A stretch of DNA of 64,000 nucleotides from Fundidesulfovibrio terrae (GTDB taxonomy: Bacteria; Desulfobacterota; Desulfovibrionia; Desulfovibrionales; Desulfovibrionaceae): assembly GCF_022808915.1 (NCBI RefSeq), contig NZ_JAKZFS010000001.1, forward strand, positions 434,001-498,000. Direction: 5' to 3'. The notes under the pieces were generated by a model. The model did no database searches. It was not told where the DNA came from and saw only the letters and a program-made list of their open reading frames with translations. The translations under genes and the position numbers were made by a program. Position 1 is the stretch's first letter. Every line of letters starts with the position of its first letter. Of the stretch, positions 21,364-39,204 are shown in pieces.

Positions 21364-22542
21364 TCATTGCCCGTCCTCCCCGCCGTTTCCGCTGTTGTAG
21401 TCCAGGTCCAGCTTGAGTTCGCCCAGGTCCGAGACCTTTTCGCCCCGGGCCAGGCGGACCTGGTCGATGGCCAGGGTCAGCTTGGCCCGGTCCGTGGCGT
21501 TGGCCAGGGCGGTGTCCCGGTCGATGAGGTTCTTCTCGTAGAGCGAAAGCAGGTACTGGTCGAAGGTGAACATGCCGAAAGTGGAGCCGGACTCCACCGC
21601 GCCGTAGTATGTTTTGTCCCCGGATTCGCCGGTTAAGATGAGCTCGCGCACCTGGAGGTTGTTGCGCAGGATTTCGAAGGCCGCCACGCGCCCGCCGCCC
21701 ACCTTGGGCATGAGCCGCTGGGACACCACGAACTTGAGGCTGGCACCCAGGCGCTGGCGGATGAGCTGCTCTTCGCTGGAATCGAACATGCCGATGATGC
21801 GGTTGATGGTCTGGCCGGTGTCCGAGGTATGCAGGGTGCCAAGCACCAGGTGGCCGGTCTCGGCGGCCTGGAGGGCGGTCTCCACGGTCTCGCGGTCGCG
21901 CATTTCGCCCACCAGGATCACCTTGGGGGCCTGGCGCAAGGCGGCCCGCAGGCCCGAGGCGAAGCTGTCGAAGTCCTGGCCCAGTTCGCGCTGGTTCACG
22001 GTGCCGCGCTTGTGGGGGTGCACGAACTCGACGGGGTCCTCCAGGGTGACGATGTGCACGGCCTTTTTCTCGTTGATCTCGTCGATCAGCGCGGCCAGCG
22101 ACGTGGACTTGCCCGTGCCGGTGGCGCCGGTGACGAGAATGAGGCCGAACTTTTCCTTGGCCATGTCCGAGAACAGGGCCGGGAGGTTCAACTGGGCCAT
22201 GGTGGGGGCCTGGGAGGAGAGCTGCCTGAGCACCAGGGCGATGGACCCGCGCTGCCAGAAGATGTTCACGCGGAAGCGGATGCGCGAGGGGTGCTCGTAG
22301 GAGAGGTCGCAGGAACCCTTGACCACCAGGTCGCGGTAGAGCCTGACGCTGCGTCCCATGAGCACCTGGGCCATGGCTTCGGTCTGGCGGGCCACCAGGG
22401 GGCCGATGGGCAGGTCCATGTCCCTCAGTTCACCGTGCTGCTCCGCCTGGACACGCTTGCCCACGGTGAAGAGGATGTCCGAGAGCGAGGGGGCCTGGGC
22501 CAGGGCCAGGCCGATCAGGTGGTCGAAGTGCGATCTGAGCAT
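21364..22542 (-). CDS. Retraction ATPase paralogue (PilU/PilT type)
   Basis: The 392-residue PilT-family ATPase has Walker A GATGTGKST, VTLEDPVEF, Walker B KVILVGEMRDRET and the His-box TLHTSD. The PilT retraction signature is altered to VRELILTGESGDK, and the C-terminus is extended and acidic. Together with its place 10 bases after a canonical pilT, this points to a PilU-like accessory retraction motor. Extension ATPase cysteines are absent. Confidence 0.88.
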   Translation of the reverse strand: MLRSHFDHLIGLALAQAPSLSDILFTVGKRVQAEQHGELRDMDLPIGPLVARQTEAMAQVLMGRSVRLYRDLVVKGSCDLSYEHPSRIRFRVNIFWQRGSIALVLRQLSSQAPTMAQLNLPALFSDMAKEKFGLILVTGATGTGKSTSLAALIDEINEKKAVHIVTLEDPVEFVHPHKRGTVNQRELGQDFDSFASGLRAALRQAPKVILVGEMRDRETVETALQAAETGHLVLGTLHTSDTGQTINRIIGMFDSSEEQLIRQRLGASLKFVVSQRLMPKVGGGRVAAFEILRNNLQVRELILTGESGDKTYYGAVESGSTFGMFTFDQYLLSLYEKNLIDRDTALANATDRAKLTLAIDQVRLARGEKVSDLGELKLDLDYNSGNGGEDGQ

Positions 22543-22552
22543 GGGCTTTGGC

Positions 22553-23632
22553 CTATTCGTCCAGGCCGCTGGGCGGCTGGGGCAGGAGTTCCTTGAAGCG
22601 CGACTTCTGGACGGCCTTGTTGTAGGCGTCCTCGGCGGAGATTTTGCGGGCGGTGTGGAGTTCCATGATGGCTTCGTCCAGGGTCTGCATGCCCTGGTTC
22701 TTGCCGGTCTCGATGACGGAGTTGATCTGGAAGGTGCGTTTCTCGCGGATGAGGTTGCGCACTGAGGGCAGGGCTACCAGTATCTCCAGGGCGGCGGCCC
22801 GGCCGGGCTTGTCCACGCGCTTGAAGAGCGTCTGGGCCACCACGCCGCGCAGCGACTCCGACAGTGCCGAGCGGATCTGCTCCTGCTGGTCGCCGGGGAA
22901 GACCTCGATGATGCGGTCCACGGTCTTTGAGGCGCTGATGGTGTGCAGGGTGGAGAACACCAGGTGGCCGGTCTCGGCGGCTTCCAGGGCCAGGCGGATG
23001 GTTTCCAGGTCGCGCATTTCGCCCACCAGGATGACGTCGGGGTCCTCGCGCAGGGCCCCGCGCAGGGCGGACGTGAAGCTCTTGGTGTCGCGCCCCACCT
23101 CGCGCTGGTTGATGAGGCAGTTCTTGGGCTGATGCAGGAATTCGATGGGGTCCTCGATGGTGAGGATGTGCTCCTGGCGCTGGGTGTTGATGAAGTCGAT
23201 CATGGCCGCAAGGGTGGTGGACTTGCCCGAGCCGGTCGGGCCCGTGACCAGAACCAGGCCCTTGGGCAGTTTGCAGAACTCCTTGAGGATGGGGGGCATG
23301 CCCAGCTCCTCCAGGGAGAGCACCCGTTCGGGGATGGTGCGGAAGGCCGCCGCGATGCCCCGGCTCTGCAGGAAGAAGTTCACGCGGTAGCGCGAGAGTC
23401 CTGGCACGGCGTAGGCGAAGTCCACGTCGCCGGTCTCCTCGAATTCCTTGATCTTGGGCTCAGGAGTGATCTCGTAGAGGAGCTTTTTCAAGTCCTCATG
23501 GTCGAGCAGCTTGAACTTCACCCGCTGGAGCACGCCGTGCAGCCTGATGATGGGCTGGGAGCCGCTGGACAGGTGCAGGTCCGAGGCACCCAGTTCGTTC
23601 ATCATGGAAAAAAAGGCGTCGATCTGGGCCAT
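22553..23632 (-). CDS. pilT: Twitching motility retraction ATPase PilT
   Basis: The 359-residue protein has an N-terminal PAS-like domain, Walker A GPTGSGKST (131-139), ILTIEDPIEF, Walker B DVILVGEMRD and the AIRNLIRE-type motif VRNLIREKRTFQ (291-302) that marks PilT. It drives pilus retraction. ATG 23632 is chosen because MAQIDAFFSMM matches the family start and a G-rich site precedes it. It is divergent from the PilM-PilN gene, with a 510-base shared control region. Confidence 0.93.
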   Translation of the reverse strand: MAQIDAFFSMMNELGASDLHLSSGSQPIIRLHGVLQRVKFKLLDHEDLKKLLYEITPEPKIKEFEETGDVDFAYAVPGLSRYRVNFFLQSRGIAAAFRTIPERVLSLEELGMPPILKEFCKLPKGLVLVTGPTGSGKSTTLAAMIDFINTQRQEHILTIEDPIEFLHQPKNCLINQREVGRDTKSFTSALRGALREDPDVILVGEMRDLETIRLALEAAETGHLVFSTLHTISASKTVDRIIEVFPGDQQEQIRSALSESLRGVVAQTLFKRVDKPGRAAALEILVALPSVRNLIREKRTFQINSVIETGKNQGMQTLDEAIMELHTARKISAEDAYNKAVQKSRFKELLPQPPSGLDE

Positions 23633-24142
23633 GGGCTCCCCCCCGTGTGATTCTTGTCCGGGACTATACACCATTGAGGCCGCCAGTCCAATGGGAGTTC
23701 GCGCGGCCCGGGCCGCGCGTGATCGTCGCTTTCTGCGGTTCATTTCCAATCTGTAATCAAGCCGGGGGTCTCTTGCGTCGAAGGTGCGCCGGAACAATTG
23801 CAGTGACGATACGGCGCTGCGGGTGATGGCCATGCGGGGATGTCTTCAAAAAATGGAGGCCGGGAAGCGAAATGCCCGTCAACGGCCGCTTCATCGAGCA
23901 TCATCGCATGGAGCAGCATGGACTTTCCCCCAGACGGCATGAATTTGTGCTTTGCATGAACGGGACGGACACACGAGCTGCCACATGGTTCCGAGGCCTG
24001 TCCGGTGCGTGCGGAAGGGGTTCCAATACGGTGCCCAGGCATTGGAATTTACATTGCGGAGACACATGAACACTTGACTTTTTCCTGCAAATCGCCATCG
24101 ATAAAACCAAACGACAGGCAAAATGGATCGGAGCGTTCGGCA
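23633..24142. other. Divergent control region between pilT and the PilM-PilN gene
   Basis: No gene is apparent. The region is less GC-rich than its neighbours at 23870-24130 and carries the candidate sigma-54 promoter at 24042-24057 facing the assembly operon. I found no matching site facing pilT. Confidence 0.5.
24042..24057 (+). promoter_or_regulatory. Candidate sigma-54 promoter of the pilus assembly operon
   Basis: TTGGAATTTACATTGC has GG (24044-24045) and GC (24056-24057) separated by the required 10 bases. The -12 part TTGC is consensus; the -24 part TTGGAAT is weaker than TTGGCAC. Transcription would start near 24069, about 74 bases before the predicted GTG start. Confidence 0.5.
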
Positions 24143-26179
24143 GTGGATACATCTCCCAAAGCATCGTCCACCGAAAAGCTCCTGGAGTTGATCCGGGGCA
24201 CGGGAAAGAAGGGTGGCGGGGGGGACTCTCCCGCGCCGCAGCCGTTGGCGCCGAAATCGCGCTGGGGCTTTACCGTGCCGTGGAAAAAGGGCGGTGTGGC
24301 GCAGGCAAGCTCCAAGAACGTGCGCATCGGGGTGGAAGTGACCGACAGCCAGGTGCGCATGGTCAAGCTCACCCTGGCGTCGGGGCGCGCCCGCTCCCTG
24401 GAATTCAAGACGGTCTCCATCCCCGAACAGGGGCCAGACGCCCCGGAACTTTCCCTGGTGCTGCGCCTGGCCCTCAAGGAGTTCCTGGGCAAGGCCGACG
24501 CCGACGTCTGGGCCATGGTGTCCGGTGAGAGCGCGGACCTGCGCTTCCTGCAGGTGCCCAAGACCGGCAAGAAACAGCTCACCAACGCCATCTACTGGAC
24601 CGCCAGGAAGGAAGCCGCCTTCGACGACGCCGAGGTGGTTTTCGACTACGAGCTCCAAGGCGAGATCATGGAAAAGGGGGCGCCCAAGCTCTCCGTGCTG
24701 GCCTACACGGTGAAGCGCGAGGAGTTCGAGAAGCTGCGCAACCTGTTCCTCCAGGCGGGTTACCCCTTGGCGGGACTGACCCTGCCCTCCATCGCCATGC
24801 GCGACCTGCTGCGCGGCGGCTGGGTGGAAAACGGCGGCCAGACCAGGGCCTGCCTGCACCTGGGCGGCGATTACTCCCGCCTGGAAATTTTCGGAGGCGG
24901 CGCACTCCAGTTCGTACGCGTGCTCAAGGGCGGGCTTTCGGCCATGGCCCAGGCCCTGTCGGACGAATCCAAGGAATACACCCCGAGCGCACCAAAGGCG
25001 GAACCCGAGCCGCAGCCCGGCGAGGCCGTGGCAGTGGTGCCGGAGGAGCCGGTCTTCTCGCCCGCCATCACCATCGAGCTCGAATCCATGGACGGCGGGG
25101 CCCCGGCCGAAACGGTCCGGCCCAAGGGACTTTCCGTGGACGAGGCCCGGCTGCTGCTCGAGAACCTGGCCGGCGGCCGCGAAGGGCTTCCCCCGGGGCA
25201 TCCGGGGCGCGATTTCTCCAGCGGGGACATCCTGGAGATGCTCAAGCCCGCCTGGGAACGCCTGCTGCGCCAGGTGCAGATGACCTTCTCCCACCATGCC
25301 GTCACCCTGGGCAACGAGCAGGTGGGCAGCCTAATCCTGAGCGGCCCCCTGGGGGCCGAGCCGGGACTTCTGGATCACCTTTCCGAAAAGCTCGGCGTGC
25401 CCTGCTCGCACCTGGACCCCCTGTCCCCGGACAACCTGGGCAGGCTCCAGATCGCCGCCCCTTCGCTGACCCTGGCCGAACGCCTGCCCTACAGCCTGGT
25501 GCTGGGCCTGACCTGGGCCGTCCGCTCCGCCTGCAACCTCCTCTACACATACAAGCAGAAGGAGGAGGAGGACCGCGTCGCCGGACTCAACAAGATAGTG
25601 GCCCTGTGCTGGCTGGGCGCGGCCGTATCCATGCTTGGGGTGCTCGTCTGGCAGCAGACCCAGGCGTACTGGAAGCGCGAGGAACTGAGCGCCCTGGAAC
25701 GCCGGCTCGGGGAGTACCAGCCTCTCGTGGACATGCCGCTTCTTCTGGGCACCGGCAGCAAGGTGCGCCAGTCCGTGGACAACATGCGCCGCTTCGCCGC
25801 CCGCAACCTGGCCTCCGCCGTGCTGCGGGACGTGACCGATCTCACCCCGGAGAACGTCCGGCTCTTCAACGTGACCCTGGACCTGGGCACCCCTGACGAA
25901 CAGCCCCAGCTCGGGGCCGCCCAGGACGCCCAGGCCAAGCCGGGCCAGCCCAAGCCCGGCCTCAAGCCGAACACCCGCGAGAATCTGGACACCCTGACCC
26001 TGGAAGGATACGTCAAGGGCGACAGCCAGATACTCGAATCGCTTCTGTCGGCGTATCTGGTGCGCCTGCGCACCTCGCCCCTCCTGGGCGAGCCGTCCGT
26101 GAGCAAGCGTTCCCTGGAACTGACCGCGGCCGGGGAGGACGTTCTGAGATTCACTCTGACCTGCCAGGTGAGGCGCTGA
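24143..26179 (+). CDS. PilM-PilN fusion protein of the pilus alignment complex
   Basis: The product is 678 residues from the GTG at 24143 (GGAG nine bases upstream); no ATG gives a sensible start. The N-terminal half resembles the actin-like PilM (RIGVEVTDSQVRMVKLTLA, IYWTARKEAAFDDAEVVFDY, CLHLGGDYSRLEIF). A low-complexity acidic insert sits in the middle. Near residue 525 a single TM helix (ALCWLGAAVSMLGVLVW) begins a PilN-like part with a coiled stretch and a periplasmic ferredoxin-like domain (LTLEGYVKGDSQILESLLSA). Normally PilM and PilN are separate, bound through the PilN N-terminus; here they are fused. One base of overlap with pilO. Confidence 0.8.
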   Translation: MDTSPKASSTEKLLELIRGTGKKGGGGDSPAPQPLAPKSRWGFTVPWKKGGVAQASSKNVRIGVEVTDSQVRMVKLTLASGRARSLEFKTVSIPEQGPDAPELSLVLRLALKEFLGKADADVWAMVSGESADLRFLQVPKTGKKQLTNAIYWTARKEAAFDDAEVVFDYELQGEIMEKGAPKLSVLAYTVKREEFEKLRNLFLQAGYPLAGLTLPSIAMRDLLRGGWVENGGQTRACLHLGGDYSRLEIFGGGALQFVRVLKGGLSAMAQALSDESKEYTPSAPKAEPEPQPGEAVAVVPEEPVFSPAITIELESMDGGAPAETVRPKGLSVDEARLLLENLAGGREGLPPGHPGRDFSSGDILEMLKPAWERLLRQVQMTFSHHAVTLGNEQVGSLILSGPLGAEPGLLDHLSEKLGVPCSHLDPLSPDNLGRLQIAAPSLTLAERLPYSLVLGLTWAVRSACNLLYTYKQKEEEDRVAGLNKIVALCWLGAAVSMLGVLVWQQTQAYWKREELSALERRLGEYQPLVDMPLLLGTGSKVRQSVDNMRRFAARNLASAVLRDVTDLTPENVRLFNVTLDLGTPDEQPQLGAAQDAQAKPGQPKPGLKPNTRENLDTLTLEGYVKGDSQILESLLSAYLVRLRTSPLLGEPSVSKRSLELTAAGEDVLRFTLTCQVRR

Positions 26180-26718
26180 TGGCTCCCCGTTCCGGCTTCG
26201 GCAGCCTGCCGCCCAAGACCGCCCTGTACCTGCTGATCGGCTCGGGAGTGCTCGTGCTGTTCGTGCTGCTGGGCATCCTGCCCATGCAGAAAAGCCTGCA
26301 GGACCTTGACCGGCAGATGGAGCAGACCCGCTTCCGCATTGAGGAGCAGGGGGCGCTTCATCCCATCTATTTGAAAATGCTGGCCATCGCCAAAGCCGGA
26401 GGGGCCGCCGCCCCGAAGCTTCCCGAGAGGCAGAGCCTGGGACAGAAGGACGTCTCGGAACTCACCGACTCCCTGGCCCAATTCATCGTGAAGACCGGGC
26501 TGGAGGTCCAGTCCGTGACCCCGGACCCGGGTTCCCTGGGCAAGGGCTCCAAGTTCCTGGCGGTGAACATCCACGTGCGGGGCACCCTGGAGCAGATACG
26601 GACTTTCCTGGGCGAGCTGGCCATGATGCCCAGCTACGAGAACATCGAATCATTCAATCTGCAGCCCGGAAGCGGACCCCGGGACGTGACCGTCAAGGTC
26701 TGGCTGGCGGCGGAGTAG
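26179..26718 (+). CDS. PilO-like inner-membrane alignment protein
   Basis: The 179-residue protein has one TM helix (about 14-36), a short coiled coil (SLQDLDRQMEQTRFRIEE) and a periplasmic alpha/beta domain (LTDSLAQFIVKTGLEVQSV, AVNIHVRGTLEQIRTFLGEL). This is the PilO plan. It pairs with the PilN part of the preceding fusion protein, with which it overlaps by one base. Confidence 0.8.
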   Translation: MAPRSGFGSLPPKTALYLLIGSGVLVLFVLLGILPMQKSLQDLDRQMEQTRFRIEEQGALHPIYLKMLAIAKAGGAAAPKLPERQSLGQKDVSELTDSLAQFIVKTGLEVQSVTPDPGSLGKGSKFLAVNIHVRGTLEQIRTFLGELAMMPSYENIESFNLQPGSGPRDVTVKVWLAAE

Positions 26719-26721
26719 GGC

Positions 26722-27213
26722 ATGGACGTCTCGAAGCGCGAAAAAATTCTCCTGGGGGGCATGGGCGCGGCCATTCTGGTGGCGGCCGTGTACCTGCTCT
26801 GGCCGTCGTCCGCGCCCCGGTCGCCGGAGATGACGCCCCAGCAACTGGCCGACTCCAAGAAGGCGGCCGAATCCCAGCTGCAGTCGCTGGAGCGCATCCA
26901 GCTCTCCCCGCGCGAGATACAGGCCGTGAACAACGCCCAGAAGCCCTGGCCCCGCGACCCCCTGTCGCCCAAACCGCCCGATCCCGAGGCCCAGGTGGAC
27001 CGCGACAAGTTCCATTTCACCGGTTTCGTACGCGTGGGCGAGCGCAGCCTGGCTGTGATCAACGGCCGGGAATACCAGGTGGGCGAGCAGCTGGAGAGCG
27101 GCGGATTCGAGGTGTCCGAGATTTCGCCCGAGGCCGTAGTGCTTCAGGGCCTCGTCCGCAAGAACAAGGTACGCATCCCCTATCAGGACCCCAGCTTCTT
27201 CGCGGGCCATTAG
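26722..27213 (+). CDS. PilP/GspC-like pilus protein
   Basis: The 163-residue bitopic protein has a TM helix at about 9-27, a Pro-rich periplasmic linker and a C-terminal small beta domain (FHFTGFVRVGERSLAVINGR, GEQLESGGFEVSEISPEAVV). That is the HR-type domain of PilP/GspC that touches the secretin. It begins 3 bases after pilO and precedes the secretin gene, as PilP does in pilus operons. It is anchored by a TM helix instead of the lipid common in PilP. Confidence 0.75.
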   Translation: MDVSKREKILLGGMGAAILVAAVYLLWPSSAPRSPEMTPQQLADSKKAAESQLQSLERIQLSPREIQAVNNAQKPWPRDPLSPKPPDPEAQVDRDKFHFTGFVRVGERSLAVINGREYQVGEQLESGGFEVSEISPEAVVLQGLVRKNKVRIPYQDPSFFAGH

Positions 27214-27248: not shown

Positions 27249-29060
27249 ATGAACCACATGATGCGTCCGAGGGTTCCGGTTCTGCATATCGTGCTGGCGG
27301 CCGTTCTGATCGCCGGTCTGGCCGCCTGCGCCAAGAAACCGGAGAAGGAGCCCTTCATCGAGAAATGGCAGAACCTGGCCGAAGAGACCAAGGACAAGAC
27401 CTACACTCCCGAACCGCGCAAGGTGGATTTCTCCCAGCTGCAGGTGAAGGGCGACGGCAAGGCCGCCGACGTCCCTAAGCGCAACCTGCCCGTCATGCGC
27501 GTGTCGCTCAACTTCTACAATACCGATCTCCAGGCCGTGCTGCGCTCCATGGCGCGCATCGCCAACCAGAACATCATCCTGTCGGCCTCGCTGCAGGCCC
27601 CCGAGAGCCAGGGCAAATACAAGGTGAACCTGAACGTCAGCGAGACGCCCTGGGATCAGGCGTTCAACTCCATCCTCAACGCCAACGGCCTCTCCTACGA
27701 CTGGGACGGCGAGATCATCCGGGTCATGACCCTCGAGGACATGAAGGGCCAGAACGAGATGAAGAAGGCCGTGGCCGAGAAGATGACCCAGAACGAAAAG
27801 CTCAAGACCGTGGAGCCGGTGGTCACGGCCAAGGTACAGGTGAACTACGCCGACGTGACGGAGCTGGAAAAGACCCTCAAGGGGTATCTGGCCTCGTCCA
27901 CGGCTCCGGCCGGCGCACCTGGAGCGGCGCCGGGGGCCGCGCCGGGCGGCGCGCCGGGCGGCTCGGACGAGCTGGCCGGCAAGATCAAGGGATTGGTGGT
28001 CGCCGACAAGCACTCCAACTCCATCATCATCCAGGCCACCCGCGAGCACGCCGAGATGCTGGTGAAGCTCGTTGAGAAGCTGGACGAACCGCGCCTGCAG
28101 GTGCACCTCAAGGCGTTCATCGTGGAGGCCTCGCGCGAATCGCTCTTCGACCTGGGCTTCCAGTGGGGCGGCTTCTTCAAGACCCAGCCGGACGCCAACG
28201 GCAACCGCGGCTACGTGCTTTCCGGCAACAACGTCTCCGTGGCTACCGACGGCACCCGGACCCTGACCCCCATCTACGGCCTGGGACCCTCCAGCTACGG
28301 CTACGCCTTCAACTATCCGGCCTCCATCAACGGGTCGGGCACGGGCCTGGGCGCCCAGGGCACGGCGCTCAACTTCATGTGGGGCTTGCTGAACGGCAAC
28401 ATCCTGCAGATGCAGCTGACCGCTCTGGCCAAGGAGGGCAAGCTCAACATCGTCTCCGAGCCGTCCCTCACCACCCTGGACAACGACATGGCCTTCACCG
28501 AGAACGGCGAACGCGTTCCCTACGTCACCGTGTCCCAGAACGGCACCAACGTGCAGTTCATCGACGCCGTGCTGCGCCTGGAGATGACTCCCCACGTCAT
28601 CGACGAGAAGAACGTGCGCATGAAGCTCATCATCAAGAACGACGAGGTGGTCACCGACCAGAGCCAATGGGTGCAGGGCAACCCCCCCATCCGCAAGAAG
28701 GAGACCAACACCACCCTCATCGTTGAGGACGGGGCGACAATCATCATTTCCGGCCTGGCCAAGCACTCCAAGACCAAGAGCGAGCAGGGATTCCCCGGCC
28801 TCAAGGACATCCCCGGGGCGGGCTACCTATTCAAGAACACCAACAATGACAGCACCAAGCAGGACATCCTGGTGTTCATCACCCCCACGGTGCTCAAGAG
28901 CCCTTCCCAGCAGCCCTCCGCCCCGCCGCCGCCCGGACTGGCCCCTTCCGCGCCGGGCGCACCCACCGGGCAATCCGGTCCGTCCAGGTCGCCTGATAGA
29001 CAGCCCATCCCCATGGGGCCGCCCGCGTCCGCGCCGCAGACAGGGAGGGTCGGCGGCTGA
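27249..29060 (+). CDS. Type IV pilus secretin (PilQ/MshL type lipoprotein)
   Basis: The 603-residue outer-membrane secretin has a lipobox (LAAC, Cys27), an N-terminal STN-type domain (VSLNFYNTDLQAVLRSMA), a secretin N domain with an Ala/Pro/Gly linker (about 217-240), and the C-terminal channel (LNIVSEPSLTTLDNDMAF, IDAVLRLEMTPHVID, TTLIVEDGATIIISGL). The tail is Pro-rich. It lets the pilus cross the outer membrane. There is no AMIN domain in the secretin; the AMIN domain is instead in the next gene. AAGGA precedes the ATG. Confidence 0.92.
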   Translation: MNHMMRPRVPVLHIVLAAVLIAGLAACAKKPEKEPFIEKWQNLAEETKDKTYTPEPRKVDFSQLQVKGDGKAADVPKRNLPVMRVSLNFYNTDLQAVLRSMARIANQNIILSASLQAPESQGKYKVNLNVSETPWDQAFNSILNANGLSYDWDGEIIRVMTLEDMKGQNEMKKAVAEKMTQNEKLKTVEPVVTAKVQVNYADVTELEKTLKGYLASSTAPAGAPGAAPGAAPGGAPGGSDELAGKIKGLVVADKHSNSIIIQATREHAEMLVKLVEKLDEPRLQVHLKAFIVEASRESLFDLGFQWGGFFKTQPDANGNRGYVLSGNNVSVATDGTRTLTPIYGLGPSSYGYAFNYPASINGSGTGLGAQGTALNFMWGLLNGNILQMQLTALAKEGKLNIVSEPSLTTLDNDMAFTENGERVPYVTVSQNGTNVQFIDAVLRLEMTPHVIDEKNVRMKLIIKNDEVVTDQSQWVQGNPPIRKKETNTTLIVEDGATIIISGLAKHSKTKSEQGFPGLKDIPGAGYLFKNTNNDSTKQDILVFITPTVLKSPSQQPSAPPPPGLAPSAPGAPTGQSGPSRSPDRQPIPMGPPASAPQTGRVGG

Positions 29061-29061
29061 C

Positions 29062-30738
29062 ATGCGTTATTTCGAACTCTTGAATCTGCGCCGCGAGCCC
29101 TTTTCCAACTCGCCGGACCCGGACCTGTTCTACCGCACCAAGCAGCACCGGGAATGCCTCCAGGCCCTGGAGATCGCCCTGCGTTTGAAGCGCGGCCTGT
29201 GCGTGGTCACCGGGCACGTGGGAACGGGCAAGACCACCCTGTGCCGCCAGCTCATCCGCCTTCTGGGGGAGCGCCAGGGGGTGGTGACCCATCTGGTGCT
29301 GGACCCGTCCTTTTCGGACGCGCGAGAGTTTCTGGTCTATCTTTGCGGCTGCTTCGGGATGGATGGAGGGGAGGCCCGGGCCGCCAGCGACTGGCAGCTG
29401 CGCGAGCACATCAAGAACACCCTCTGGGGCCTTGCCGTGGAAGAGGACCAGTTGGTGGCCCTCATCGTGGACGAAGGCCAGAAGATGTCGCTCGAATGCC
29501 TGGAGATCCTGCGCGAGCTGCTCAATTTCGAGACCAACGAGCACAAGCTCCTGCAGATCGTGATCTTCGGGCAGCTGGAGTTCGAGCCCATCCTGGAGGC
29601 CAAGGCCAACCTGGCCGACCGGGTGAACCTGCGCTTCCGCATCGGCCCCCTGGATTTCCAGGACACCCGCGAGCTCATCCAGGCCCGCCTGGCCATGTGC
29701 TCCAAGGACATCTCCCCCGAGGGGCTCTTCAGCTTCTGGGCGCTTTTGGCGGTGTACCTGGCCACGGACGGCTTTCCGCGCCAGATCGTGCAGTTGTGCC
29801 ATCAGGCGCTTCTGGCGGTGATCATCAAGGAGCGCCCCCGCGTCACCTGGGGCGTGGTGCGCAGCTGCATGCGCTGGCGCACCCTGGGCCTGCCCAGGCG
29901 CAGGCGCTGGCCCAGGACGGCGGCCGCCGTGTTGGCGCTTCTCGTGTTGGCTGCCGGAGCCGGAATGTACTTCGGAGGCGACAGCCTGGACCTACGCCGC
30001 CTCAAGGGCGCCGTGGCCGGAATATCCCTGCCGGATGTGGCTTCCTGGTTCCGCCCGGACCGGGACAAGGGCGCAGCCCAGGGTGGTGCCGGGGCAACCA
30101 CAGCGGACAGTTCCGCAGGGGGGGGCGCGGTGTCCGGCCCGGGAACCCCGCCGAAACCAGCGCCGCAAGCCCAGGACGCGTCGCAGCAGGACGCCCTGGC
30201 CGGGGACTCCCGGGGCGTTTCCGGCCCGGTGACGCCGAGCGCGAGCGGCCAGCAGGACCAACAGGGGCAGCCGGGGAACGCGGCCCAGACGGGCGCGCCT
30301 GCGCAGGAATCCGCGGCCGCCCTGTCCAGCCAGTTGGGCCAGCCTGGCGGTCCGGCCTCCGAGGCCGCCATGCAGCCCTCAGGCGAGCCTTCCGGGGCGA
30401 AATCCCCGCGCGAGCAGGGGCCGCCCCGCTTCACCGGGGTGCGGCTCTCGGCCGTGGACGGCGTGGAGACGTTGGAAATACTTACCGATTATCCCGTTGA
30501 CCGTTTCGAGTCCGGATTCAAGCCCAACCCCGCGCGAATCCTGGTGGATCTCCCCGGCAACTGGGAGCGCCGCGCGGACCGGGAGCTGCCCGTGGGCTCG
30601 GAACGTATTGACAAAGTGCGCAGCGCCGTTCATCCGGATAAGCTGAGGGTGGCGGTCTATCTCAAGGACGCCTCGGTCGGGCCTGTCCGGCCGCAGGTGG
30701 AAAAGACTCCCTCGGGACTCAGAGTCATCCTCAAATAA
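29062..30738 (+). CDS. ExeA/MshM-type AAA ATPase with periplasmic AMIN domain
   Basis: In the 558-residue protein the cytoplasmic N-terminal half is an ExeA/GspA-type ATPase (RYFELLNLRREPFSNSPDP; Walker A GHVGTGKTT 51-59; Walker B VALIVDEGQ 132-140). A TM helix at about 286-304 leads to a 150-residue linker rich in Pro, Gln, Ala and Gly, then a C-terminal AMIN domain (about 452-558: VETLEILTDYPVDRF, PARILVDLPGNW). GspA relatives normally end in a different peptidoglycan-binding domain. It probably helps place the secretin in the cell wall. It starts one base after the secretin stop. Confidence 0.85.
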   Translation: MRYFELLNLRREPFSNSPDPDLFYRTKQHRECLQALEIALRLKRGLCVVTGHVGTGKTTLCRQLIRLLGERQGVVTHLVLDPSFSDAREFLVYLCGCFGMDGGEARAASDWQLREHIKNTLWGLAVEEDQLVALIVDEGQKMSLECLEILRELLNFETNEHKLLQIVIFGQLEFEPILEAKANLADRVNLRFRIGPLDFQDTRELIQARLAMCSKDISPEGLFSFWALLAVYLATDGFPRQIVQLCHQALLAVIIKERPRVTWGVVRSCMRWRTLGLPRRRRWPRTAAAVLALLVLAAGAGMYFGGDSLDLRRLKGAVAGISLPDVASWFRPDRDKGAAQGGAGATTADSSAGGGAVSGPGTPPKPAPQAQDASQQDALAGDSRGVSGPVTPSASGQQDQQGQPGNAAQTGAPAQESAAALSSQLGQPGGPASEAAMQPSGEPSGAKSPREQGPPRFTGVRLSAVDGVETLEILTDYPVDRFESGFKPNPARILVDLPGNWERRADRELPVGSERIDKVRSAVHPDKLRVAVYLKDASVGPVRPQVEKTPSGLRVILK

Positions 30739-30742
30739 CGCG

Positions 30743-31966
30743 ATGCCCTCCTTTTCCTACCAGGCTCTGAGCGAAACCGGCCGTACGGTCACGGGAACGC
30801 TGGAAGCGGACTCGGCCGAAAGCGCCCAACGCAAGCTTTTGTCCATGGGCTACATTCCCGTGTCCATCACCCAGGGGGCTCGGCCGGCGGGGCTTTCCGC
30901 GTGGTGGGCGGAAAAGCAGGTTGACCTGACCAAGGTCAAGGTCAAGGAAATCATCCTGTTCACGAAGCAGTTCAGGACGATGATGCAGGCGGGCATCTCC
31001 ATCCTGGACATACTCAGGATTCTCGAAGAGCAGTCCGAGAACCTGAAGCTCAAGCGGATATGCGGCGAGATGAACGCCGACATCAAGCAGGGAAAGACGC
31101 TCTTCGAGGCCTTCTCGGCCCACCCGAAGGTGTTCTCCAACCTGTACCGCAACATGGTGAAGGCGGGCGAGGAGTCCGGAGCGCTGCCGGAGGTGCTGCA
31201 CCGGCTCATTTACCTCATCGAGCACGAGCACAAGGTCAAGGCGGACATCAACTCCGCGTTGCAATACCCCATCACCGTGGTGATCGTCCTGGCGCTGGCG
31301 TTTTACGTGCTCCTGACCTTCGTGATCCCCAAGTTCGTGGGCATCTTCGCCAACGCGAAGATCGAGCTTCCCTGGCCCACGGTCATCGCCATCAACATGT
31401 ACAACTTTTTCGCGGACTACGGGTATTTCGTGCTGGTGGGGGTCATCGCCTTCATCTGGGGGTTCATCAGGGTGCTCAAGACCGAGCGCGGCAGGCTCGT
31501 CTGGGACCGCTTCTGGCTGCGGGTGCCCGTGTTCGGACCGCTGTTCACCAAGGCCGCCATGGCCCGGTTCGCGGCCATCTTCGCCATTCTCCAGGCCAGC
31601 GGCGTGTCCGTGCTCGCCATCCTGGACATTCTGGGCGGCACTATCGGCAACGCGGCCATCGCCCTCGAATTCGCCCAGATCAAGGAGCAGCTCAAGGAAG
31701 GCCGTGGCCTGGCCCCGCCCTTCCGCCACACCAAGCATTTCACTCCCATGGTCATCAACATGGTCTCCGTGGGCGAGGAGTCCGGCAACCTGGAGGAGAT
31801 GCTCCAGGCCGTGGCCAACCATTACGACGACGAGGTGGCCTACGCCGTGGCCAGCCTGTCAGCCGCCATCAACCCCATTCTGGTCCTCGGCCTGGCCGGA
31901 GTGGTGGGTTTCTTCGCCCTGGCCATCTACATGCCCATGTGGGACATGACCAAGATGGTGAAATGA
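30743..31966 (+). CDS. Pilus inner-membrane platform protein (PilC/GspF/MshG type)
   Basis: The 407-residue protein starts MPSFSYQALSETGRTVTGTLE, the normal opening of the family, and has two T2SSF domains with three TM segments. GEESGALPEVL and GEESGNLEEML are the repeated signatures. It forms the platform on which the ATPase acts. It lies 4 bases after the ATPase-AMIN gene, and its stop is directly followed by the start of the sigma-54 activator. Confidence 0.93.
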   Translation: MPSFSYQALSETGRTVTGTLEADSAESAQRKLLSMGYIPVSITQGARPAGLSAWWAEKQVDLTKVKVKEIILFTKQFRTMMQAGISILDILRILEEQSENLKLKRICGEMNADIKQGKTLFEAFSAHPKVFSNLYRNMVKAGEESGALPEVLHRLIYLIEHEHKVKADINSALQYPITVVIVLALAFYVLLTFVIPKFVGIFANAKIELPWPTVIAINMYNFFADYGYFVLVGVIAFIWGFIRVLKTERGRLVWDRFWLRVPVFGPLFTKAAMARFAAIFAILQASGVSVLAILDILGGTIGNAAIALEFAQIKEQLKEGRGLAPPFRHTKHFTPMVINMVSVGEESGNLEEMLQAVANHYDDEVAYAVASLSAAINPILVLGLAGVVGFFALAIYMPMWDMTKMVK

Positions 31967-33301
31967 ATGTTCCAGCGAATGCGCGTGGACATCTCCCTGG
32001 GGGTGCTCATCCCCTTCATCCTGGGCGGGCTTGCTGCGCTGTTCGTCCTGGGGCTGACGGCCGTCCGGGAGCTCGGCTACCTGGCGGGGCTCACCAGGGT
32101 TCAGTTCGGCTACGCCTCTGCTGCCGGGACCGGGCTTACGGTGTTCGGGGTGGCCATGCTGCTGGGCAGGCTGGTGCTCAGGCCCGTGAAGCAGTTCCTG
32201 GGCCGGGCCAAGAACCTGCCCATGCTCAAGGAGCCCGCCGAAAAGATGGAGAGGGCCCGGGGTGCCGAGATCGACGCCCTGGACAAGATGTTCGAGCACG
32301 TCACCCACGTGCTGGAGAGCCTGGACGCCAAGGCGCTCTTCCCTGAAATCATCGGCGAGAGCCGGGCCCTGCGTGGGGTGCTGGCCCAGGTGGCCAAGGT
32401 GGCCCCCTCCGACGCCACGGTGCTGCTCACCGGCGAATCCGGCACCGGCAAGGACCTGTTCGCCAACACCGTCCACGCCCACTCCAAGCGCAAGGACAAG
32501 CCCTTCGTGGCCGTGAACTGCGCGGCCATCCCCCCCGGACTCATGGAGAGCGAGCTCTTCGGGCACGAGAAGGGGGCCTTCACCGGGGCCATCGCGGCCA
32601 AGAAGGGCAAGTTCGAGCAGGCCAGCGGGGGCACGCTCTTCCTGGACGAGATCGGGGACATGCCCATCGAAACCCAGGCCAAGATCCTTCGCGCCCTGGA
32701 GAACGGCGAGGCCGAGCGGGTGGGCGGGGACAAACCCGTGCGCTTCAACGTCCGGCTGGTGGCGGCCACCAACAAGAACCTCCAGGAGATGATCGGCAAA
32801 AACGAGTTCCGCGAGGACCTCTACCACCGGCTCAACGTCTTCCCCTTGCTGCTGCCGCCCCTCCGGGTGCGCCCGGAGGACATCCCGCTGCTGGCCACGC
32901 ATTTCCTGGAGCGCTTCGGGCCAGGGCTCACCATCGCCACCGAGGCGTTGCAGCTGCTCATGGCCTACGCCTGGCCCGGCAACGTGCGTGAGCTGCGCAA
33001 CACCCTCGAGCGCGCCGCAGTGCTGGCCGGGGAGCACGAGGTCGTCCTGGCCGAGCATCTTCCGTCCCAGGTGCGCCTGGTGTCGGCCTCGGAGCCGCAG
33101 TTGCCGATCATGCCCGAAAGCCGCGCCAAGGACCTGGACGAACGCCTCGAGGAGATCGAGAAGGGGCTCATCATCGCCGCCCTGGTCAGGTGCAACGGGG
33201 TGCAGGTGCGCGCTGCCGAGATACTCGGCATCAAGGAGCGCAGCCTCTGGCATCGGGTGAAGAAGTACGGTGTGGACCCTGCCTCGTACAAGCGTAACTG
33301 A
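31967..33301 (+). CDS. Membrane-anchored sigma-54-dependent transcriptional activator
   Basis: The 444-residue protein has two TM helices (about 10-30 and 49-68) joined by a short loop and followed by a HAMP-like linker. The sigma-54 AAA+ domain has Walker A GESGTGKD (156-163), GAFTGA (203-208) and Walker B GGTLFLDE (221-228), and ends in a Fis-type helix-turn-helix (AAEILGIKERSLWHRVKKYG, 416-435). There is no receiver and almost no periplasmic sensor. The ATG follows the GspF stop with no gap, so it is made with the pilus machine. The likely target is the sigma-54 promoter 570 bases downstream. Confidence 0.92.
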   Translation: MFQRMRVDISLGVLIPFILGGLAALFVLGLTAVRELGYLAGLTRVQFGYASAAGTGLTVFGVAMLLGRLVLRPVKQFLGRAKNLPMLKEPAEKMERARGAEIDALDKMFEHVTHVLESLDAKALFPEIIGESRALRGVLAQVAKVAPSDATVLLTGESGTGKDLFANTVHAHSKRKDKPFVAVNCAAIPPGLMESELFGHEKGAFTGAIAAKKGKFEQASGGTLFLDEIGDMPIETQAKILRALENGEAERVGGDKPVRFNVRLVAATNKNLQEMIGKNEFREDLYHRLNVFPLLLPPLRVRPEDIPLLATHFLERFGPGLTIATEALQLLMAYAWPGNVRELRNTLERAAVLAGEHEVVLAEHLPSQVRLVSASEPQLPIMPESRAKDLDERLEEIEKGLIIAALVRCNGVQVRAAEILGIKERSLWHRVKKYGVDPASYKRN

Positions 33302-34023: not shown

Positions 34024-34449
34024 ATGAACACCACCACCCGCACCATCAACACCGGCAAGGCTCAAAGCGGCTTCACCCTGATCGAAGTTATCGCCGTCCT
34101 GGTTATCGTCGGCATGTTGGCCGCCGTGGCCATCCCCAAGTACCTCGACATGCAGACCTCTGCTGCGAAGAACGCCATTCAGGGCGCCATCGCCGCCGGC
34201 GCCTCCAACGTGACCATGGAGTACTCCCAGGAACTGCTGAAGGGCACCTTCTCTGACATGGCCACCCTGGCCACCAACCTGTCGGTGCCCGGCTACACCA
34301 CCGTGGGCGACTTCACCGTGACCTACACTGCCGCCGCCAGCGGCATCACCGTGACCCTGGCCACCGCTCCCGACCCGATTAACGGGCAGGTGGCCAAGGT
34401 GAAGGCCCTGGTGCCCGATCCGACGGTCAAGACCATCACCCTTCAGTAA
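34024..34449 (+). CDS. Major type IV pilin (MSHA-like)
   Basis: The 141-residue prepilin has a 16-residue leader ending QSG and cleavage before F17 (FTLIEVIAVLVIVGMLAAVA), with the required Glu at mature position 5. The remaining 125 residues form a small globular domain with no cysteines. It is the first gene after the sigma-54 promoter, has TTTTGGAGG upstream, and is followed by a stable hairpin. These points suggest it is the abundant subunit. It would be processed by the prepilin peptidase at 38307-39104. Confidence 0.9.
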   Translation: MNTTTRTINTGKAQSGFTLIEVIAVLVIVGMLAAVAIPKYLDMQTSAAKNAIQGAIAAGASNVTMEYSQELLKGTFSDMATLATNLSVPGYTTVGDFTVTYTAAASGITVTLATAPDPINGQVAKVKALVPDPTVKTITLQ

Positions 34450-34482
34450 CAGCCCAGCCTGACGGCACAGACTGAAAGCTTC

Positions 34483-34514
34483 AGCCGGGCGGGACCAGAT
34501 GGTTCCGCCCGGCT
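34483..34514 (+). terminator. Stable hairpin between the major pilin and minor pilins
   Basis: A 14-bp stem (34483-34496 with 34501-34514, one G-U pair) and a 4-base loop lie 34 bases after the pilin stop. No T-run follows, so it is more likely a partial terminator or an mRNA-stabilising end than a full terminator. Confidence 0.6.
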
Positions 34515-34655
34515 TGAGTGCGCTGAGGGACCTTGGCGGATTCGAGCAGGGAGAGTATCGTGAGAGCGTAAGCGGCTTGTAAACAGGCAGAGGGCCGGTC
34601 CGGATGGCCGGATGCGGGACGAGCAGGGTGTAAGCGAGCCCCAAAGGCGAAAACC

Positions 34656-35078
34656 ATGACCCCTCGCAAGGACAGCAGAAATTTCGACGGCCAGAAGGGT
34701 GTGACCCTCAAAGAGCTGACCATCGTCCTGATCCTCATCGGGGTTCTTGCGGCGGTGGCCCTGCCGCGCTTCTCCAACCTGAACGCCGACGCCATCTCCG
34801 ACGCCGAGACCCTCAAGTCCACCTTGCGCTACGTCCGCACCCGGGCCCTGTCGGACATATACACCTGGCAGCTCCAGGTGGCCGGCTCCACCCTCACCGT
34901 GCAGCGCAACACAGCGACCCCGACAAGTTACACCATCGCCTTCACCACCGCCGGAGTCGCGGCGGGCACCACCACCTTCGACAACCGGGGCCAGCCTACG
35001 GGGACATTGTCCTACGCGGTGACCGGCTACCCCTCCAGCCCCGTGACGATCACGACGGGCACAGGGTTCGTTCCGTGA
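34656..35078 (+). CDS. Minor type IV pilin/pseudopilin
   Basis: The 140-residue prepilin has leader MTPRKDSRNFDGQKG and then VTLKELTIVLILIGVLAAVAL. Glu5 is kept but residue +1 is Val rather than Phe and +4 is Lys. The C-terminal part is Thr/Gly-rich (SYTIAFTTAGVAAGTTTFDN). It is probably a priming or minor subunit. It is the first of three consecutive minor-pilin genes that overlap or nearly touch. Confidence 0.82.
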   Translation: MTPRKDSRNFDGQKGVTLKELTIVLILIGVLAAVALPRFSNLNADAISDAETLKSTLRYVRTRALSDIYTWQLQVAGSTLTVQRNTATPTSYTIAFTTAGVAAGTTTFDNRGQPTGTLSYAVTGYPSSPVTITTGTGFVP

Positions 35079-35089
35079 AAGGGGGGCGC

Positions 35090-35476
35090 ATGAAAACGAG
35101 CGGATTCACCCTGATCGAGCTGATCATCACCCTCATTTTGATCTCGGTGATGGCGGCCATGGTGGTTCCCTTCTTCAAGCCGAGCGTGACGCGCGGCACC
35201 GATCCCTTCGGCTTCATGAACACGCCGCTCAGCGTGCAGACCATCATGGCCAGCATCGTGGCCGACTACAACAGCAACGGCACGTACCTGCACGACCTGT
35301 CGCAGCTCAACACCAGGATAGCCAGCGGCAATTACGGGCTCAGCTCGAGCCAGACCATCACCAAGGACAACACCTTCAAGTTCGATCCGACGGATCTGGA
35401 CACCGCCCTCAAGGTGACCATCAAGGACAACGCCTCCGGGCAGAGCGTGACGTACGTCTTCACGAAGCAGTTATGA
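35090..35476 (+). CDS. Minor type IV pilin
   Basis: The 128-residue prepilin has a very short leader (MKTSG) and N-terminus FTLIELIITLILISVMAAMV with Glu5. I chose ATG 35090, which follows a GGGGGG-rich site; an in-frame GTG at 35075 would overlap the preceding stop. The soluble part is small with no cysteines. It overlaps the next gene by 4 bases. Confidence 0.85.
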   Translation: MKTSGFTLIELIITLILISVMAAMVVPFFKPSVTRGTDPFGFMNTPLSVQTIMASIVADYNSNGTYLHDLSQLNTRIASGNYGLSSSQTITKDNTFKFDPTDLDTALKVTIKDNASGQSVTYVFTKQL

Positions 35477-35967
35477 AAAAAGAGAGAATATCCGAGCGGG
35501 GGGCGACCCTTCTGGAGGTGATCATCACGCTGGTGATCCTGAGCATGGTCGCGGCCGGGAGCCTGGCTATTCTCTTCAACATCGTCGAGGGGATGATACA
35601 GGAGCGCAACGTGTCCGCTGCCGAGGAGAACATCCAGGGAGCGCTCACGCGAATCACGCACGAGATAGCCAACATGGACACCAAGCGGGCCTATACGTTC
35701 GCGGCCTCCAGCATAACGTACTACTACCGCACGGACGCGACGCAATCCACCATCCAGCTGTCGGGAACGAACCTGCAGCTCAACGGGAATACGCTCCTGA
35801 ACAACGTCGTCTCCGGGACGGGGTTCGCGGTCACGGCCCCCAACTATACGACCAGCCCCGCCGTTCCCGTGGGTATCTCGCTCTCGGTGCAGGTGAAGGG
35901 GGCCAGGATCACGGTGACGAAGACGTACACGGCGAAGATCGAGCTGAATACGCAGCGCTTCCAATAG
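35473..35967 (+). CDS. Minor type IV pilin
   Basis: The 164-residue prepilin has leader MKKERISERG and then ATLLEVIITLVILSMVAAG with Glu5. The first mature residue is Ala. The C-terminal domain is Thr/Ser/Asn-rich with a predicted beta pattern (STIQLSGTNLQLNGNTLLNN). Its start overlaps the preceding stop (ATGA), so it is translationally coupled. Confidence 0.83.
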   Translation: MKKERISERGATLLEVIITLVILSMVAAGSLAILFNIVEGMIQERNVSAAEENIQGALTRITHEIANMDTKRAYTFAASSITYYYRTDATQSTIQLSGTNLQLNGNTLLNNVVSGTGFAVTAPNYTTSPAVPVGISLSVQVKGARITVTKTYTAKIELNTQRFQ

Positions 35968-35982
35968 ATCGAGGCCAGAGCC

Positions 35983-37425
35983 ATGAACAGGCATGAATCC
36001 AGCGGCGTCGGAAACCAGGGGGGCTTTTCACTGATCTGGGTGATTGCCGCCATCACCATCATCGCGGCCTTGTCCGGGGCCGTCCTGAACATCTTCTCCA
36101 CGGCCCGCAAAAACGAGATGATGCTCACCTTCGACACCCAGGCCCGCCTGCTGGCCGAATCCGGCATGAACTACGCCAGCAACTACGCCTCGGACATCCT
36201 GAGCGGCGCCACCAACAACGCGCTCACCACCCTCGACGGACGGGTCATCACCACGGGGCTTCCGACCAACCAGAAGATAACCCTTTCCGTGTCGGTCAGC
36301 GCGTCCAACGCCTACGACTACGTGGTCACTTCCGTGGGCACCGTGAACGCGGGCACGAAATTCGAGGCCAACTACTCCGTCACCAACGTCATCAACGCCC
36401 CCAACAGCGGCACGGGCATCTACATCGTCCAGTCCAAGCCCGGCACGGCCGTGGCCACGCCCACGGGCGTGTCCGTCAACGCCAGCTCGCTCAACGACTA
36501 CACAGCCGGCATCAGCTTCGACCCGAGGTTCGCGGGGAGCGGCAACTCCATCGCCAGCGCCAACTTCACCAACGGCATAGGCAGCCTGCTCAACGGCTTC
36601 CGGGTGTATTTCACCTACAGCATCTCTTCGGGCTCCGCCGCCGACGGATTCGTGTTCTCCATCAAGAACGGCACCTGGAACACCCCGCGCGACGCGGGAG
36701 GGCCGCCAGCAGGCGTGTCCCACGGATCGTTCCTGGGCTACGCCGGACCGGGCTACCCCTACTGGGGCAACGGCCTGGGCATACGTCCGCCCAAGATGGG
36801 GGTGGAATTCGACATCTACACCAACAGCGGGCACTCCGGCTCCCCCACGGTGAGCAGCGACGGGCGCAACGATCCGGACAACCACCACATCGCCAACATC
36901 TTCTGGGGAAGCACCTGGACCATCACCACCGCAGCCGCGGCGCCCACCAACTCCTACGCCACGTCGTCCTACTACGGCTTCGACGACAACGTGCATAACC
37001 TGGGCTACGCCAACGACAAGACCGACTACAGGCCCTTCAACCCCGACGGGACCGACAACGATCCCGGAGGCTCGGGGCGCCCGGGCCTGTTGTCCATAAC
37101 CAGGACCAACATGGTGGGCACGGCCAGCCCCGTCCCTGTGCGCATCGAGGTGATCCGGCCAAGCTCGGTGGTGTCGTCGGTCTCCACCGATGCGCACTAC
37201 AACATGTACGCCTATGTCATTAAGACGTGGCACAACTGCACCGGGGTTGGATGCAACGACATCTCCACGGATTACGCGGGTGCGACGCCAACCATTCAGT
37301 ACACAGTCTACATGACGGCAGCCGAACACACCATGTTCCAGTTCTTCGTGTTCGGATTCCAGGTGTCCACGGGCGCGTCCACGGGCCAGTACAACTTCTC
37401 CATCCCCAAGATCGGCATGCGCTGA
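35983..37425 (+). CDS. Large minor pilin with L-type-lectin-like domain (putative tip adhesin)
   Basis: The 480-residue protein has a prepilin leader ending QGG and then FSLIWVIAAITIIAAL; position +5 is Trp, not Glu, as in GspK/PilX-like tip subunits. The stretch at about 45-140 resembles minor-pilin stalk sequence. Residues about 175-475 look like a concanavalin/legume-lectin fold: ADGFVFSIKNGTW, LGYAG, GVEFDIYTN (274-281), DNHHIANI (299-306) and the closing FQFFVFGFQVSTGASTGQY. The Asp/Asn positions expected for Ca2+ are present. This suggests a carbohydrate-binding adhesin at the tip of the pilus. It follows the third minor pilin by 15 bases. Confidence 0.78.
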   Translation: MNRHESSGVGNQGGFSLIWVIAAITIIAALSGAVLNIFSTARKNEMMLTFDTQARLLAESGMNYASNYASDILSGATNNALTTLDGRVITTGLPTNQKITLSVSVSASNAYDYVVTSVGTVNAGTKFEANYSVTNVINAPNSGTGIYIVQSKPGTAVATPTGVSVNASSLNDYTAGISFDPRFAGSGNSIASANFTNGIGSLLNGFRVYFTYSISSGSAADGFVFSIKNGTWNTPRDAGGPPAGVSHGSFLGYAGPGYPYWGNGLGIRPPKMGVEFDIYTNSGHSGSPTVSSDGRNDPDNHHIANIFWGSTWTITTAAAAPTNSYATSSYYGFDDNVHNLGYANDKTDYRPFNPDGTDNDPGGSGRPGLLSITRTNMVGTASPVPVRIEVIRPSSVVSSVSTDAHYNMYAYVIKTWHNCTGVGCNDISTDYAGATPTIQYTVYMTAAEHTMFQFFVFGFQVSTGASTGQYNFSIPKIGMR

Positions 37426-37628
37426 ACTCTGCCGCCTTGTTCCGTGGTGCACCTTCGGACCGCAGTAGGGTGGCTGTTCCAACGCATTCGTAAAGACCCA
37501 GGCGCCAGCATGGGCGAGCGTCACGATTGCGACGCAGCCGGAGCATGGTGCTTCCTCTCGTGCCCGCGATGCACAGCTAATGCTTGACTGGCAAGTGTTT
37601 TGCTTCCATATCCGCGGAGGGGAGCCCC

Positions 37629-39104: not shown

Positions 39105-39204
39105 CGGGCCTTCCTTTTTTTGCCTGTATAAGCAAAAGCTCTCGCTCAAACAACAACGGACTTTCCCGCACGGATGGACGCCCCGCGCCACGACCCTGCT
39201 TCAA

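Follow-up and report, generated by a model that had tools for sequence, protein, structure and literature searches.

A C-terminal AMIN domain on the ExeA/GspA-like ATPase of a predicted MSHA-like pilus operon in Fundidesulfovibrio, in place of a predicted LysM-SPOR module

The genes of MSHA-type pili are arranged in the order I-J-K-L-M-(N)-E-G, and mshM is found after the secretin gene and before the genes for the extension ATPase and the GspF protein. Related membrane ATPases are known from type II secretion. Aeromonas ExeA is a peptidoglycan-binding protein required together with ExeB for assembly of the secretin (PMC4098917, PMC9239104), and GspA contains a PF01471 domain and a cysteine-peptidase-like domain (PMC9239104). 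The tails of GspA proteins vary, some having no periplasmic region and others being GspAB fusions (PMC9239104). In P. aeruginosa, deleting either the AMIN of PilQ or the LysM motif of FimV delocalises the pilus machine (PMC5285504), and in M. xanthus the AMIN of PilQ recruits the secretin to the septum and the pole (PMC10653833). The presence of AMIN on the secretin has been associated with polar pili and its absence with peritrichous pili, three species being exceptions (PMC10653833). Gains of LysM or AMIN have also been reported for FliO (PMC12403147). Varying wall-binding modules on envelope machines are already known in kind from FliO with LysM or AMIN and from the GspA variants (PMC12403147, PMC9239104).

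We analysed a window of 64,000 nucleotides from Fundidesulfovibrio terrae (assembly GCF_022808915.1, contig NZ_JAKZFS010000001.1, positions 434,001 to 498,000); coordinates given below for this genome are those of the window and refer to the + strand unless marked −. The gene at 29062-30738, here called exeA, encodes an ExeA/GspA-like membrane ATPase of 558 aa with a C-terminal AMIN domain, and its ATG lies one base past the stop codon of a secretin gene. The protein follows the ExeA/GspA plan, in which an AAA domain at the N-terminus is followed by one membrane helix and a further C-terminal region. The AAA ATPase part (residues 1-270, 29062-29871) was recognised by Pfam (AAA_22, residues 43-178, 9.1e-22), and residues G51, G54, G56, K57, D137, and E138 are invariant in the columns of 51 aligned sequences. 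A single transmembrane helix at about residues 287-305 (29920-29976) was placed at the hydropathy maximum and is preceded by an Arg-rich stretch, suggesting that the ATPase is on the cytoplasmic side and the tail in the periplasm. Next comes a poorly conserved and putatively periplasmic linker (residues 309-455, 29986-30426), and then the AMIN domain (residues 456-558, 30427-30735). The linker is 147 residues long with Ala, Gly, Pro, Ser, and Gln as its commonest residues, in agreement with the long Pro/Gln/Gly-rich linker described in the initial annotation of this DNA. The Pfam search, which covered 25 families at E<=1, gave no peptidoglycan-binding domain PF01471; we therefore term the protein GspA-like and do not file it as GspA. 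It scored under the cut-off of the XrtA/PEP-CTERM ATPase model TIGR03015 (147.6 vs 324.5), and a PDB search with P0001 gave no close relative, the best match being an origin recognition subunit (E 8e-4).

The C-terminal tail is a real AMIN domain. Pfam AMIN (PF11741; residues 486-555, 5.6e-5) scored 23.6 bits, just 3 bits above its cut-off of 20.5. When the AMIN sequence profile was used to search the PDB, the best match was PilQ of M. xanthus (4.4e-22) and AmiC was also found (4.1e-10). An AlphaFold2 model of residues 445-558, built from 52 alignment rows, consists entirely of strands and is confident (pLDDT 90.3, pTM 0.82). The first five Foldseek matches of this model in the PDB were AmiC 4bin, PilQ 4av2, 9hmf, PilQ 3jc8, and PilQ 4aqz. 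The four AmiC and PilQ rows had a probability of 1.00, TMq of 0.60-0.66, and E of 0.012-0.07; no match in this search reached E<=0.001, and none of the first five was below 0.01. The remaining structure, 9hmf, is from the flagellar motor of C. jejuni, of which it is a periplasmic scaffold. Thus, the reading of the ATPase C-terminus as AMIN in the initial annotation, which had proposed a domain search of this part, is borne out by Pfam, the PDB profile search, the confident model, and the AmiC and PilQ folds. The ExeA-AMIN protein is present in five of the seven Fundidesulfovibrio genomes examined, F. terrae included. Three of the other four have full-length matches of 69, 72, and 75% identity, and the match in G050 falls into two pieces (74% over residues 1-376, 59% over 444-558). 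In G075 and the 66%-complete G118, both of this genus, the ATPase part alone has a counterpart, a distant paralogue.

The secretin gene adjoining exeA (27249-29060) encodes a protein with a lipobox-like Cys27, read by eye as a lipoprotein, and with the Pfam domains Secretin, Secretin_N, and STN. The protein scored above the cut-off of the PilQ model TIGR02515 (291.6 vs 284.35 bits) and far below that of the MshL model TIGR02519 (90.3 vs 250.2 bits). Pfam found no AMIN in it at E<=1, as had been observed initially. Across the 21 loci of this operon (21 genomes), which include genera whose ATPase bears another tail, none of the secretins has an AMIN at E<=1, and this rules out a hidden AMIN in the secretin. 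In the genome of F. terrae, neither secretin is located at any of the four AMIN hits; PF11741 scans undercount, and these four hits were obtained when the genome was scanned alone and three in larger runs. The 0 of 21 result means that nothing points to a secretin that ever had an AMIN, and the secretin is not an evident source of the one on the ATPase.

Upstream of the secretin gene are genes predicted to encode a PilM-like protein whose length would allow a PilM/PilN fusion (24119-26179, start approximate; TIGR01175 1.5e-16, under cut-off), a PilO/GspM-like protein (26179-26718; Pfam PilO 1.3e-5), and a small PilP/GspC/GspB-like protein (26722-27213). The last of these matches Pfam T2SSB (1.8e-4, 21.5 vs 28.4 bits) and T2SSC (1.1e-3), both under cut-off, and a PilP/GspC/GspB-like match occurs at this position in 20 of 20 loci. 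These matches weakly suggest that it is a GspB-like partner of the ATPase. Downstream of exeA are a GspF/PilC platform protein (30743-31966; Pfam T2SSF; GspF 362 bits, under cut-off), a sigma-54-dependent regulator (31967-33301; Pfam Sigma54_activat 1.5e-72), and a run of five ORFs (34024-37425), four of which have a prepilin N-methylation motif in Pfam, one of these under cut-off; the fifth (35983-37425) has no Pfam match at E<=0.01. An SLT lytic transglycosylase (37584-38195; Pfam SLT 4e-29) is encoded after the prepilin genes. It has a DUF4124 start, adjoins the prepilin-like ORFs, and is a candidate for local wall opening. An ORF at 38307-39191 (−) was read by eye as a prepilin peptidase. 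The extension ATPase, of the GspE/MshE type with MshEN and T2SSE domains, is encoded upstream at 15499-17187, apart from the core operon and away from exeA. Two further T2SSE-family ATPases, PilT/PilU-like by eye, are encoded at 21364-22542 (−; Pfam T2SSE 2.4e-44) and 22553-23833 (−; 1.2e-47).

This arrangement is largely shared by related loci. In all 20 of them exeA lies between the secretin gene and gspE or gspF, and in 14 gspE follows exeA, before gspF; it does not in four Fundidesulfovibrio loci and two from g10 (L043, L048). The order PilM, PilO, PilP/C, secretin, ExeA, GspE, GspF is found in 14 of the 20 loci apart from gaps at PilO, for which a match is absent from two of the 20. The position of exeA in the family, after the secretin gene and before those for the extension ATPase or GspF, together with the MshEN-type ATPase, resembles that of MshM in MSHA pili, a likeness of gene order.

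We examined the tails of the relatives. Of the 57 tails read in the family, 41 are LysM-SPOR modules, five are AMIN, and 11 are neither; 51 strong ExeA matches contributed 36, 5, and 10 of these, and six sequences added later contributed 5, 0, and 1. The 51 rows include two each from G014 and G031 and two pieces from G005 in L081, and the six read later are from G061, with one in-frame TAG in the match, and from five g38 genomes with split matches; the g38 genomes G124, G135, and G144 and weaker paralogue-like matches were left out of the 57. The five AMIN tails are those of the five Fundidesulfovibrio genomes. A wider set, the best 80 of 466 relatives (one genome per species; record titles mostly of Desulfobacterota-type bacteria with some Nitrospirota), contained 77 LysM-SPOR tails, one AMIN tail, and two with neither, and two of its members, L132 and L172, seem to duplicate G009 and G082 of the family set. 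The single AMIN tail belongs to Fundidesulfovibrio agrisoli SG106; one of the two remaining sequences is cut by a contig end and the other has a YARHG domain. When 395 genomes of the phylum were searched with the five AMIN-tailed queries, 316 had a match and, among the matches listed, only that of F. terrae itself reached the AMIN end. The genomes listed include no other Fundidesulfovibrio, and this negative is only suggestive because the AMIN end can form a separate weak row, as in G050.

In 102 of 113 LysM-SPOR modules taken into an alignment (A4), Pfam matched Phage_tail_X in 46 rows, SPOR in 23, and LysM in 15. The profile of this module found LysM structures in the PDB and, weakly, the SPOR domain of DamX (0.037). 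Pentatricopeptide matches in the same search were set aside as sums of repeats that score ~5 bits each (in the two shown residue by residue). A model of a LysM-SPOR tail (pLDDT 93.6) had the DamX SPOR domain as its best fold match (probability 0.99, E 0.007, TMq 0.38), with no Foldseek match in the PDB at E<=0.001 and no LysM structure among the 50 matches shown. The idea that AMIN and LysM-SPOR are diverged copies of one domain gained no support when the two profiles were compared, as they failed to match (hhalign probability 2.9%). The window protein is like the LysM-SPOR-tailed ExeA proteins of Desulfobacterota and Nitrospirota in its gene, operon place, ATPase, helix, and linker plan, and unlike them in having AMIN as its tail. 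On the sequence evidence, AMIN stands in place of the ATPase's own predicted cell-wall module, a LysM plus a SPOR-like domain. The initial comparison had been with the end domain of GspA; the module displaced is LysM-SPOR and not the PF01471 of Vibrio and Aeromonas GspA.

Seven g29 sequences (L052, L063, L067, L070, L073, L031, L255), six of the first 51 and one of those added later, have no recognisable tail domain, and wall binding by ExeA thus seems dispensable in some lineages. In these seven orthologues a hydrophobic stretch is still present and the tail is of low complexity. Other variants were seen in single relatives or small groups. An ExeA orthologue at L064:2095-3855 (G097, g25) has a TPR tail (TPR_6 1e-14, YfiO 3.7e-9), which is either a true fusion or a local deletion, the other g25 members read having LysM-SPOR. 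A further tail type is the C-terminal YARHG (5.2e-18) of an ExeA relative at L187:4001-5566 (a Desulfurivibrionaceae MAG). The g38 sequences L250-L254 have roughly 50-80 extra residues in the ATPase part after about residue 95-128 and a LysM-SPOR tail. At L081:2620-5174 (G005) there are two adjoining exeA-like ORFs, possibly damaged; the first is 277 aa long, and the tail of the second matches neither AMIN nor LysM-SPOR.

The explanation that we consider probable is that this gene encodes the ExeA/GspA-like assembly ATPase of an MSHA-like pilus, in which LysM-SPOR was exchanged for AMIN on the Fundidesulfovibrio stem and which provides wall anchoring for secretin assembly. It builds on the architecture, the common LysM-SPOR tail, the AMIN clade, the tree, and the signs of selection that we report; from these we infer peptidoglycan binding, placement, and a role in secretin assembly. 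The periplasmic end of the ancestral ATPase would have been a LysM plus SPOR-like module, which was presumably swapped on the Fundidesulfovibrio stem for one AMIN behind the same ATPase, membrane helix, and a linker, the most likely source of the copied AMIN being a membrane-anchored protein with this domain in the same lineage. The ATPase would sit in the inner membrane beside the partners of the secretin, and the long flexible linker would allow the AMIN domain to reach peptidoglycan, probably septal or polar. Multimerisation of the ATPase at the wall could then open or organise it, and the secretin, in which no wall-binding domain is recognisable, would assemble and stay at that place. In this manner the AMIN tail would hold the ATPase, and via the ATPase the assembling secretin, at wall sites recognised by AMIN.

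Such a protein would be like ExeA and GspA of the Aeromonas and Vibrio type II secretion systems in having a cytoplasmic AAA domain, one helix, a periplasmic wall-binding end, and a tie to secretin assembly, here predicted. It differs from GspA, with its PF01471 and cysteine-peptidase-like domains, in having AMIN and in belonging to a pilus-type operon. With the AMIN-bearing PilQ of M. xanthus and P. aeruginosa it shares the AMIN fold and probably a wall-based placement of the pilus machine, whereas the AMIN of PilQ is on the outer-membrane pore and that of the window protein is on an inner-membrane ATPase. By analogy with these systems, the tail likely serves in peptidoglycan anchoring and placement during secretin assembly for an MSHA-like type IV pilus. 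The initial annotation had proposed a swap that keeps cell-wall targeting; the swap stands, and the targeting is probable by analogy with ExeA, PilQ, and FimV.

The main rival to wall anchoring is that the AMIN tail mainly binds a protein, be it the periplasmic ring of the secretin, the PilP-like protein, or a different AMIN protein, and gives stability to the machine. We regard this as unlikely, even though the AMIN of C. jejuni FliO is reported to be needed for FlhB stability (PMC12403147) and one of the top fold matches of our model is the flagellar motor scaffold of that species. The displaced LysM and SPOR are both reported to bind peptidoglycan (PMC9239104), and the same is reported for the AMIN domains of AmiC and PilQ (PMC5285504, PMC10653833). 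Since the module displaced is made of peptidoglycan-binding types, the wall is the natural common denominator, and anchoring to it is the role that we prefer.

We used trees to examine how the machine was inherited and where the AMIN came from. In a tree built from the secretin and the ATPase together (85 of 99 loci, the other 14 having no more than 300 aa of secretin; quick search, no bootstrap), the family is one clade (SH-aLRT 99) and Fundidesulfovibrio groups (100) with a row from g25 and another from g41, each of which has a LysM-SPOR tail. A tree of the ATPase only (49 of the 51 family sequences and 42 of the best 80 relatives) left Fundidesulfovibrio unplaced within the family, and only concatenation with the secretin places the genus. 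From the concatenated tree, the machine appears to be vertically inherited, with the exchange of its tail falling on the Fundidesulfovibrio stem. All five AMIN tails group in a single clade (100/100). In the best AMIN tree, the ExeA-AMIN domains are inside a 25-row set with 20 stand-alone AMIN proteins of the family (98/83). F. terrae itself has three stand-alone AMIN proteins, each with a membrane helix by eye. Donor tests did not reject the L004-type proteins (p-AU 0.252) or the second AMIN of PilQ (0.156; six rows, five from PilQ and one from a partial protein), and the L001-type was borderline (0.059); the L004-type proteins are from the genus Fundidesulfovibrio. Alignment A3 was made without the amidase-type AMIN proteins L102, L126, L127, L128, L131, and L110 (L110 repeats L127), and the AMIN tree without L002, L087, L103, L104, L106, L110, and AMIN hits with E >1e-6. 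These results favour the stand-alone AMIN proteins of the family as the donor. Two AMIN fusions were also seen in the family, AMIN ending an outer-membrane efflux (OEP) protein at L103:1366-3171 and a TPR protein at L112:129-2273.

The AMIN could instead have come from a PilQ-type secretin, fused to the ATPase, with the secretin losing its own copy. PilQ of M. xanthus is the best PDB match of the AMIN profile, BLAST with the window ExeA matched the AMIN of two PilQ-like proteins of the phylum (L237, 1.8e-6; L239, 8.8e-7), and the grouping with the six second-AMIN rows survived the donor tests. We nevertheless find this origin improbable: AMIN is absent from every secretin of the operon, the secretins of F. 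terrae are at none of its AMIN hits, and the best tree groups ExeA-AMIN with the stand-alone proteins. Moreover, a clade of ExeA with all nine PilQ AMIN rows was rejected (p 1.7e-6), those nine themselves not forming one clade. The initial proposal that AMIN moved from the secretin to the ATPase is therefore unsupported, with AMIN on 0 of 21 operon secretins and the exchange lying inside the ATPase gene; its domain swap is retained.

We consider it very unlikely that the exchange took place in an unsampled lineage from which the whole AMIN-tailed system was then gained. The stem under the five AMIN-tailed sequences is long, and the ATPase-only tree, in which the nearest row by path from outside the genus is a Syntrophaceae sequence, gives no placement. 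Against this are the position of Fundidesulfovibrio beside g25 and g41 inside the family clade of the concatenated tree and an operon order that matches the family apart from gspE. Exchange on the stem within a vertically inherited machine is the history that we favour.

Across the 10 pairs of five Fundidesulfovibrio species, the AMIN part had 0 gaps over 103 residues and a pN/pS of 0.17-0.50, and the linker had 22-62 gapped positions and a pN/pS of 0.45-0.91, ratios that are rough because dS is high in some pairs. The absence of gaps and the low pN/pS compared with the linker suggest that the domain is kept by selection. The idea that the tail has lost its importance and that AMIN replaced it neutrally, for which the g29 relatives that keep the gene with no tail domain could be cited, scarcely fits with a domain so much more constrained than its adjoining linker, and we give it almost no credence.

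Among the matches listed from the open-licence PMC literature, we found no AMIN on an ATPase of the ExeA/GspA/MshM type; the 2008 survey of AMIN is outside this scope and may mention it. An AMIN on the ATPase beside a secretin with none would be missed by a survey of secretins. A parallel is FliO with LysM or AMIN, where an inner-membrane protein that helps to assemble an envelope machine likewise has a lineage-specific wall module. The FliO case concerns flagellar export and a domain added to a usually bare core, whereas here one module replaces another. Our results suggest that the module in ExeA that places the machine in the cell wall is exchangeable and, in parallel with FliO (PMC12403147), that inner-membrane assembly factors may generally tend to exchange their wall-binding modules.

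Relatives have this ATPase in the same operon with LysM-SPOR as its tail, and the two forms therefore make up a natural module-exchange experiment, in which it can be tested whether the wall-binding domain alone sets the building site of the machine. We raise, tentatively and with some doubt, the possibility that ExeA-type ATPases have at their periplasmic end an "address slot" with exchangeable contents, by which the wall site for building a pilus or secretion machine is chosen. The slot would mostly contain LysM-SPOR; in Fundidesulfovibrio it would contain AMIN, in single relatives TPR or YARHG, and in g29 no recognisable domain. If this is true, the placement signal borne by PilQ in model pili would sit here on an inner-membrane ATPase, and secretins with no AMIN would still be placed at the septum or pole.
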